From: a virus
Reading direction: 5' to 3' (one strand)
Length of the DNA: 34,686 nt
Virus record (IMG/VR): IMGVR_UViG_3300030109_004051
Location: 1 to 34,686 of that record
Made by a program: the position numbers and the translations under genes
Shown: positions 18,776 through 20,214 of the stretch, piece by piece
How the letters are laid out: each line of letters starts with the position of its first letter
Numbering within the stretch: position 1 is the stretch's first letter
Notes under the pieces: generated by a model
What the model was told of the DNA's origin: nothing
The model's database searches: none
What the model saw: only the letters and a program-made list of their open reading frames with translations

Positions 18776-19210
18776 ATGCCTTACAATGAGAAACCCCCTA
18801 CAAGCCAAGATATGGGGCAGTTTTCTACGATGAAAAGTGGAATTATTGGGGAAACAGCAGTTATTCACGATTTGACAATAAATTATCCTGAGTTCGATGT
18901 TTATAGACCTATCGTTGATGACAAGGGGGTTGATATTCTTGTTGATACAGGAGCTACATTCAGGAAGGTTCAGGTTAAGACAGTTAATGCGGTCAAGTCA
19001 GCCACTTCATTTGAGGTTGACTTCAGGAAACATTTAAAAGCAAAACATAAAATAGATGTCTTTGCTGTTTTCTTTGTGCCAATAAAAAAGATAGCCTATA
19101 TACCTTGGGATGGTCAGAACAGGATGCAACTTGCTTTTAAAAGAGCAAAGAATAATCAAGCAAAGAACAGAGACTCATTTTATAACTATTTAGACTTCCC
19201 AGTTTATTAA
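18776..19210 (+). CDS. PD-(D/E)XK endonuclease (PDDEXK_5-like)
   Basis: The 144-residue protein has S-G-I-I-G-E (E26), D-V-Y-R-P-I-V-D-D-K-G-V-D-I-L (D53) and K-V-Q-V-K-T-V (Q66-K68), then I-A-Y-I-P-W near the end. This order matches small group I intron-endonuclease/restriction-like PD-(D/E)XK proteins. It may be a recombination nuclease or a restriction-like enzyme; it lies one base from the methyltransferase start (TAATG), so a restriction-modification pairing is possible but unproven. Confidence 0.7.
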   Translation: MPYNEKPPTSQDMGQFSTMKSGIIGETAVIHDLTINYPEFDVYRPIVDDKGVDILVDTGATFRKVQVKTVNAVKSATSFEVDFRKHLKAKHKIDVFAVFFVPIKKIAYIPWDGQNRMQLAFKRAKNNQAKNRDSFYNYLDFPVY

Positions 19211-20214
19211 TGAAGATGTTAGACCTATTTAGCGGTATTGGTGGTTTTGCACTTTCAGCGGAATGGTGTTGGGGAGACGAACTTGATATTGTTGGGTTCT
19301 GTGAAATTGAGAACTATGCCCAGAGAGTTTTAAGTAAAAACTTTCCAGGTGTACCTATCTATGACGATATTACAAAATTAAATGGCAAGGAGTTAAAGAA
19401 AGTTACTGGTGATATTGATCTTATCACTGGTGGCTTTCCGTGACCATGTCAGGATATATCAATTGCGGGAACAGGGAAAGGATTAGTAGATGAAAAAACA
19501 GGAGAGAGAACGAGGTCAGGTCTTTGGTCAGAAATGCACCGTATCATTAGCGAAGTACGACCAAAATACGCAATCATTGAGAACGTACCAATGCTCATTC
19601 ATAGAGGACTTGAACGAGTTCTCTGCGACCTTGCCGAAATCGGGTATGATGCGGAATGGCAAGTTATCGGAGCAGACGAAGTTGGTGCTTGGCACAGGAG
19701 GAAACGGATTTGGATTGTTGCCTACCCCAAACGCTTGGGATGGGATGAGAGGAGCGACATCCAGGGAGTTGACTCTGAGCAAGAAACATCAAGTCAACCT
19801 ATTGAGTGCAGTGAAACACAATCTCATGCCAAAAATGTTTCCAACACCAACAACAGCAGACACATGGACAGACAAACTCAAGAGCAGTCAACAGAAGGAG
19901 GGCTCGATGCATTCAGTGAATCTCAGCCAGGCGGTACACATGAAAGGGATGTTCCCGACACCGACATCAAGCGATCACAAGGGTTGGTCGAAAGGTCACA
20001 AGAGAGCAGGGGATACGAGCAACCGATTAGATTTCGCAGTAGAGCCAGACAAAGGAGTTGGTGGAACGCTGAACCCGATGTGGGTAGAGTGGCTAATGGG
20101 ATTTCCAATCGGGTGGACAGACTTAAAGGACTCGGAAACGCAGTAGTGCCACAGTGCGTTTATGAAATTATGAAGAGAATTCGCCCACTGCTTGAAGAAA
20201 AGAAAGAAGTTTGA
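19210..20214 (+). pseudogene. dcm: C5 cytosine-DNA methyltransferase interrupted by TGA at the catalytic motif
   Basis: One frame holds the C5-methyltransferase motifs in order: D-L-F-S-G-I-G-G-F (motif I), G-G-F-P then P-C-Q-D-I-S (motif IV with catalytic Cys), I-E-N-V-P (VI), H-R-R-K-R-I-W-I-V-A (VIII), and G-L-G-N-A-V-V-P-Q (X). Between G-F-P and P-C-Q lie the codons TGA (19441-19443) and CCA, equal to a 6-base insertion that keeps the frame. The first 77 residues lack the catalytic loop. Activity would need readthrough; otherwise it is inactivated. The wild-type role would be 5-methylcytosine protection of phage DNA. Everything downstream is intact, so the lesion is recent, tolerated or a sequence error. 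Confidence 0.8.
19490..20146 (+). CDS. Protein nested in the methyltransferase gene (S-G-M-M-R-N-G / L-L-P-T-P family)
   Basis: A 218-residue ORF lies wholly inside the methyltransferase gene in another frame. AAAGGA about 7 bases before its ATG gives it its own ribosome binding site. It carries motifs I recognise from many phage proteins: S-L-A-K-Y-D near the start, L-P-K-S-G-M-M-R-N-G, G-L-L-P-T-P-N-A-W-D, two further F-P-T-P-T repeats, and N-P-M-W-V-E-W-L-M-G-F-P-I-G-W-T-D-L at the end. The same bases encode methyltransferase motifs in the other frame. Function unknown; it may be a companion of the methyltransferase. Confidence 0.6.
   Translation: MKKQERERGQVFGQKCTVSLAKYDQNTQSLRTYQCSFIEDLNEFSATLPKSGMMRNGKLSEQTKLVLGTGGNGFGLLPTPNAWDGMRGATSRELTLSKKHQVNLLSAVKHNLMPKMFPTPTTADTWTDKLKSSQQKEGSMHSVNLSQAVHMKGMFPTPTSSDHKGWSKGHKRAGDTSNRLDFAVEPDKGVGGTLNPMWVEWLMGFPIGWTDLKDSETQ

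Follow-up and report, generated by a model that had tools for sequence, protein, structure and literature searches.

A methyltransferase gene in the 34,686-nucleotide stretch of viral DNA analysed here (the window) very probably encodes a two-polypeptide C5-cytosine methyltransferase of the M.EcoHK31I/M.AquI kind, both chains being encoded by the same DNA in different frames. The long chain, alpha (from ATG 19210), would supply the catalytic and cofactor domain (motifs I–VIII) and, at its end, motif X. The second chain, beta, would start inside alpha at ATG 19490, in the +1 frame and from a Shine-Dalgarno sequence of its own. Its N-terminal part, which is short and shares its DNA with alpha motifs VI–VIII, would be followed by the variable region, which is the target-recognition domain (TRD) of one-chain C5 enzymes, in the form of repeated PTP units, and then by motif IX. 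We infer that the two chains assemble into one methyltransferase in which beta chooses the target DNA sequence. The alpha frame between motifs VIII and X may be a disordered spacer, in which selection merely keeps stop codons out. Hundreds of phages and bacteria share this two-frame arrangement.

Results

Layout of the locus and the alpha chain

Alpha extends on the plus strand from 19210 to 20214 (335 codons, including an in-frame TGA at 19441–19443), and beta runs on the same strand from ATG 19490 to the TAG ending at 20146 (218 aa, +1 relative to alpha). The sequence-only reading had described two open frames over 19490–20146, and both read as it described, with every motif that it quoted present. 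A 226-aa ORF at 19534–20214 is merely the 3′ part of the methyltransferase gene starting at ATG 19210. The downstream alpha ORF of the window matches PF00145 at 1.1e-16; in the complete relative L005, alpha matches PF00145 at 4.9e-49 and TIGR00675 at 2.5e-42. Residues G71, P73 and C74, E112 and N113, and R152 and R154 are invariant in 57 alphas, which places PCQ, ENV and RxR in order. The C-terminal motif X (GNxV) of C5 methyltransferases is found in the alpha frame as GLGNAVVPQ (20128–20154), and the stop codon of beta (20144–20146) sits within it.

By sequence comparison the likeness of alpha to M.HhaI stops at motif VIII. The L005 alpha model, which matches M.HhaI in a fold search at 4e-17, has a pLDDT of about 96 over residues 1–165, below 50 over about 168–232, and about 92 at motif X. 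Alpha is without a motif IX of its own or a constrained TRD, and the model predicts disorder between motifs VIII and X.

The in-frame TGA lies within a 6-nt insertion that splits the catalytic GGFP|CQ of motif IV in the window copy. Relatives read GGFPCQDIS at this position, and the insertion was not seen in them; among complete loci, alpha is broken only in the window and in the frame-switched L060. Because the TGA interrupts the catalytic motif, the window copy is probably inactive as predicted from its sequence, unless the break is a contig error. Recoding of the TGA was considered and is unneeded, as TGA serves as the stop codon of other ORFs of the window, whose remaining genes can be read in the usual way. 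The argument at the level of the family is independent of this break.

Other insertions were found before motif IV. At L223 (1143–2643) an apparent HNH-type insertion lies in the methyltransferase gene, and the ORF continues into the beta frame, while in L240 the alpha insertion encodes an extra WPTP-like unit in the beta frame. Upstream of alpha in the window is a PD-(D/E)XK endonuclease gene (18776–19210; PF11645, 9e-9), whose end overlaps the alpha start in TAATG. As a restriction partner this gene was rejected: a homologue was seen near alpha in only a few close relatives (L006, L008 and L009), so it is not a conserved partner.

Selection in the two frames

In a phase test, alpha genes were aligned as nucleotides, with neither protein used, and mismatches were counted per alpha codon position in 44–52 non-overlapping pairs per region. 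The shares at positions 1/2/3 were 26/15/59% over motifs I–IV, 33/17/50% over motifs VI–VIII and 25/14/61% at motif X, and they were 56/24/20% in the VIII–IX (TRD) region and 57/23/20% at motif IX. Since alpha position 1 is beta position 3, the changes over the TRD and motif IX are silent in beta. Comparison of the window with 15 relatives gave mismatch counts of 176/88/77 at alpha positions 1/2/3 in the TRD and 21/15/71 at motif X.

The four-fold synonymous rate of alpha was mostly 0.4–0.5 (about 0.48) over motifs I–IV, lowered to 0.17–0.32 over motifs VI–VIII, and mostly 0.04–0.10 in the TRD, with up to 0.20 in the first and last bins. It was 0.00–0.05 at motif IX and returned to 0.45 at motif X, where the alpha frame is therefore in use. 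Summed up, the fall over the VIII–IX region and motif IX is from about 0.48 to 0.04–0.06. The rates of beta run opposite to those of alpha and cross them at the same places. Conventional C5 methyltransferases, analysed as controls, had flat rates (0.64/0.56/0.61/0.65) with position 3 dominant throughout, and across motifs VI–VIII their rate was 0.56, versus 0.17–0.32 in alpha.

Beta is thus a selected protein and no shadow. True double constraint is confined to motifs VI–VIII, in the window at 19534–19722, where alpha runs from ENV to HRRKRIW (19693–19713) and the N-terminal part of beta reads LAKYDQNTQSLRTYQC ... LPKSGMMRNG. From 19723 to about 20130 selection acts on the beta frame alone, and the alpha frame is merely kept open. 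Synonymous recoding of beta, based on local codon usage, led to an expectation of 509 stops in the alpha frame of 102 loci, and 0 were observed. Only loci with alpha traceable to motif X were taken, so the test describes the window-type arrangement; alpha is likely kept free of stops because it must reach motif X.

The sequence-only reading had taken both frames for genuine proteins, and the second frame indeed has neither stops nor free synonymous variation. Its proposal of double constraint holds over motifs VI–VIII (about 19534–19722) and fails beyond them: synonymous rates in both frames bear out selection on beta, with alpha only kept open from 19723 to about 20130. It had also counted EPDVGRVANG among the methyltransferase blocks of alpha. 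The DNA there is constrained in the beta frame, and the string is a shadow of the beta residues NPMWVEWLMG, because both the substitutions and the synonymous rates follow beta.

Motif IX and the PTP units of beta

The DNA that reads EPDVGRVANG in alpha encodes LNPMWVEWLMGFPIGWTDL in beta (20069–20125). In L132, L151, L157, L159 and L161 the string LNPDWVEWLMGYP is followed by GNAVVP in one frame; written as a pattern, LN(P/A)DWVEWLMG(F/Y)P precedes GNA(V/L)VP, both in the alpha frame. Because a single frame holds LNPxWVEWLMGFP together with motif X in these relatives, the beta string is identified, on the ground of sequence context, as motif IX. Positions 277–323 of PF00145 align, weakly, to LNPDWVEWLMG...GNAVVP in L132 and L159. 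The PF00145 scores of isolated IX–X segments are weak (E 0.0095–0.044), and the isolated segments of L151, L003 and L199 gave no match to this model.

Between motifs VIII and IX, beta consists of one to five units, mostly of 25–50 aa, that start with [WFL]PTP. The window holds three: unit 1 (LPTPNAWDG..., 19718–19837), unit 2 (FPTPTTADTWTDKLKSSQQKEGSMHSVNLSQAVHMKGM, 19838–19951) and unit 3 (FPTPTSSDHKGWSKGHKRAGDTSNRLDFAVEPDKGVGGT, 19952–20068). Unit 2 also occurs in distant alpha backbones. It shares 79% identity with one unit of L041, whose alpha I–VIII is just 43% identical to that of the window, and 74% with one unit of L021, whose alpha I–VIII is 48% identical. This type of unit ranks second of three in the window and in L041, and third of five in L021. 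The presence of such similar units on distant backbones suggests that PTP units are exchanged between backbones. The units may set the target sequence, and exchanging them would then change specificity.

Beta has no family match among Pfam and NCBIfam models, and it matches PHROG 1008 (phrog_1008) at 2.6e-24. Modelled alone it reached a pLDDT of 61 and a pTM of 0.27; a fold search with this model found no match to known folds, nor did the beta profile match PDB sequences. Such a poor stand-alone model might be expected of half an enzyme. Beta is most likely the target-recognising part, with a putative TRD.

Probable internal start of beta

A Shine-Dalgarno-like AAAGGA (19477–19482) stands 7 nt ahead of the beta ATG at 19490. 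A Shine-Dalgarno sequence with a start codon was found in the beta frame, just past the motif IV loop of alpha, in 76 of 95 loci, and in the +2 frame at the same place in 0 of 95. These signals and the constraint on both frames ahead of motif VIII favour independent initiation of beta rather than frameshifting.

Occurrence of the pair

Two separate scans of viral contigs, one using the beta protein and the other the alpha protein, were pooled with the window and three phage records. The 165 entries, less five repeats, came to 160 distinct records, and an alpha ORF and a beta ORF, both recognised by HMM and always offset by +1, were present in all 160. A tblastn search with beta found 203 phage records, mostly from mycobacteriophages, where each of the two overlapping genes bears the label 'DNA methylase'. 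In bacterial genomes, a scan with the beta alignment alone gave 356 loci. Alpha lies at +1 in 79 of the best 80, and in the remaining one, L240, it is present on inspection, with its insertion; a free-standing beta is thereby ruled out in the best 80 of the 356.

The phrog_1008 match, the 203 phage records and the constant +1 offset in all 160 records show that the two frames are more than a chance coincidence. Two suggestions of the sequence-only reading are abandoned. One was that the second frame is a widely mis-annotated frame of methyltransferase genes; wherever the second frame was found, the methyltransferase frame was there as well, in the same stretch of DNA, and no homologue of the 218-aa protein was found outside methyltransferase genes, neither in the 160 viral and phage records nor in the best 80 of the 356 bacterial loci. 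The other was that two separate families share the DNA; beta carries motif IX and the VIII–IX region of the same methyltransferase and is most likely its second subunit.

Among 198 Pseudomonadaceae genomes, C5 methyltransferases are present in 95 and beta in 8. The conventional C5 methyltransferases of these genomes gave no beta match, and their +1 frame is broken by several stops, typically 4–34; a beta-like shadow is thus no general property of C5 enzymes. Four further C5 methyltransferases (L249, L271, L292 and L294) have 1–3 stops in the +1 frame and no beta HMM match; their +1 frames are possibly further diverged versions of beta.

Frame variants among relatives

In L132, L151, L152, L157, L159, L161 and L164, motif IX is in the alpha frame and adjoins motif X, and beta stops after the PTP units; in L132, L151 and L159 this ending was established by reading each frame in turn. 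In mycobacteriophage Eagle (L003) and in L199, beta carries the TRD, motif IX and motif X together. The alpha of Eagle stops after motif VIII, and its second gene has the remainder. Motifs IX and X can thus occur in either frame, since the L132 type puts both in alpha and Eagle and L199 put both in beta. The VIII–IX region is in beta in every type inspected.

Discussion

Three other explanations of the overlapping frames were weighed. The second frame could be a mere out-of-frame shadow, thrown by conserved methyltransferase residues and codon bias. In favour of this, the offset never departs from +1, and certain beta motifs, such as LPKSGMMRNG, lie opposite conserved alpha motifs (DLAEIGYDAEW). 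The substitutions over the TRD and motif IX are, however, synonymous in beta and not in alpha, while conventional methyltransferases carry many +1 stops and no beta. With the phase and synonymous tests set against conventional controls, the shadow reading is refuted, and we give it next to no likelihood. Alternatively, beta could be a separate protein, for example a regulator or an anti-restriction protein, overprinting a complete one-chain methyltransferase; its want of a Pfam or NCBIfam family and its weak fold prediction would agree with this. Nevertheless, alpha has neither its own motif IX nor any constrained TRD, motif IX comes from beta, and in the 160 viral and phage records and the best 80 of the bacterial loci beta is never found without alpha, which makes a separate protein quite improbable.

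Constraint hands over from alpha to beta just past motif VIII, as would also happen if a programmed +1 ribosomal frameshift joined alpha motifs I–VIII to the TRD and motif IX of beta in one chain. In Eagle and L199, where the second frame has motif X as well, one such shift would yield a complete enzyme. Yet beta is already constrained upstream of motif VIII, in the dual-coding stretch, where a start codon with its Shine-Dalgarno sequence is also provided, and in the window type translation of alpha has to continue as far as motif X, which a shifted ribosome would miss. A frameshift therefore has only a slim chance of being the explanation. A two-polypeptide enzyme, with beta started internally, remains the preferred reading; the assembled pair would be expected to methylate DNA.

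More tentatively, and at slightly less than even chance in our estimate, these loci may form an unnamed and large class of phage and bacterial C5 methyltransferases. In such a class the gene of the catalytic subunit would hold the whole specificity domain in its +1 frame, as a cassette of PTP units that can be exchanged, each of them defining or adding a target sequence. Selection would switch sharply from one frame to the other and back, the catalytic frame over the cassette would be a spacer free of selection, and motifs IX and X would lie in either frame, depending on the member.

Databases label the second frame 'DNA methyltransferase' or 'hypothetical protein', and it is without a Pfam or NCBIfam model. 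Gene callers may therefore drop one subunit, and prediction of specificity looks in the wrong frame. The locus also presents a clear natural case in which selection switches frames inside one gene, with controls in the same locus. Nature here supplies hundreds of split methyltransferases whose putative specificity units appear exchangeable.

Comparison with known systems

One-chain C5 enzymes such as M.HhaI, M.HaeIII and Dcm (PF00145/TIGR00675) share with alpha motifs I–VIII, motif X and the predicted fold of the catalytic domain. They differ in having the TRD and motif IX in the same frame, no beta, and typically 4–34 stops in the +1 frame. The multispecific C5 methyltransferases of Bacillus phages (M.SPRI type) are also one-chain enzymes, with repeated exchangeable units between motifs VIII and IX. 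Units of about 35–40 aa in this position are a likeness to beta, whereas beta belongs to a two-chain arrangement and the recognition role of its PTP units is putative. The overlapping 'DNA methylase' pairs of mycobacteriophages (Eagle gp78/gp77) use the same two frames, with both genes annotated 'DNA methylase'. No description of the two-frame arrangement in phages was found in the literature searched, which covered few subscription papers and not the first description of M.EcoHK31I.

The small chain of M.EcoHK31I is reportedly encoded within the large gene in another frame (Lee, Kam and Shaw in 1995); a small chain from another frame inside the large gene is likewise seen here, with a +1 offset in all loci. 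M.EcoHK31I recognises YGGCCR and M.AquI recognises CYCGRG. Each of these C5 enzymes consists of two polypeptides, and motif IX is on the small one (PMC3404938). The large chain of M.EcoHK31I holds motifs I–VIII and X, and the predicted TRD has been placed in it, while in M.AquI some of the variable region lies in the small chain, along with motif IX (PMC3404938). A search of plasmids returned 6 records, none from E. coli, and not the M.EcoHK31I sequence, so that the comparison with this enzyme is by description. By that description the window is alike in having motifs I–VIII and X in the large chain and IX in the small one. Unlike M.AquI, whose beta has motifs IX and X, the window has motif X in alpha; Eagle and L199, with IX and X in the small chain, resemble M.AquI. 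The split into two chains and the placement of motif IX are therefore known already. What differs here from M.EcoHK31I, with its TRD predicted in the large chain, is that the DNA of the variable region is selected in the small-chain (beta) frame, which raises the question of whether the TRD of M.EcoHK31I itself sits in the small chain.
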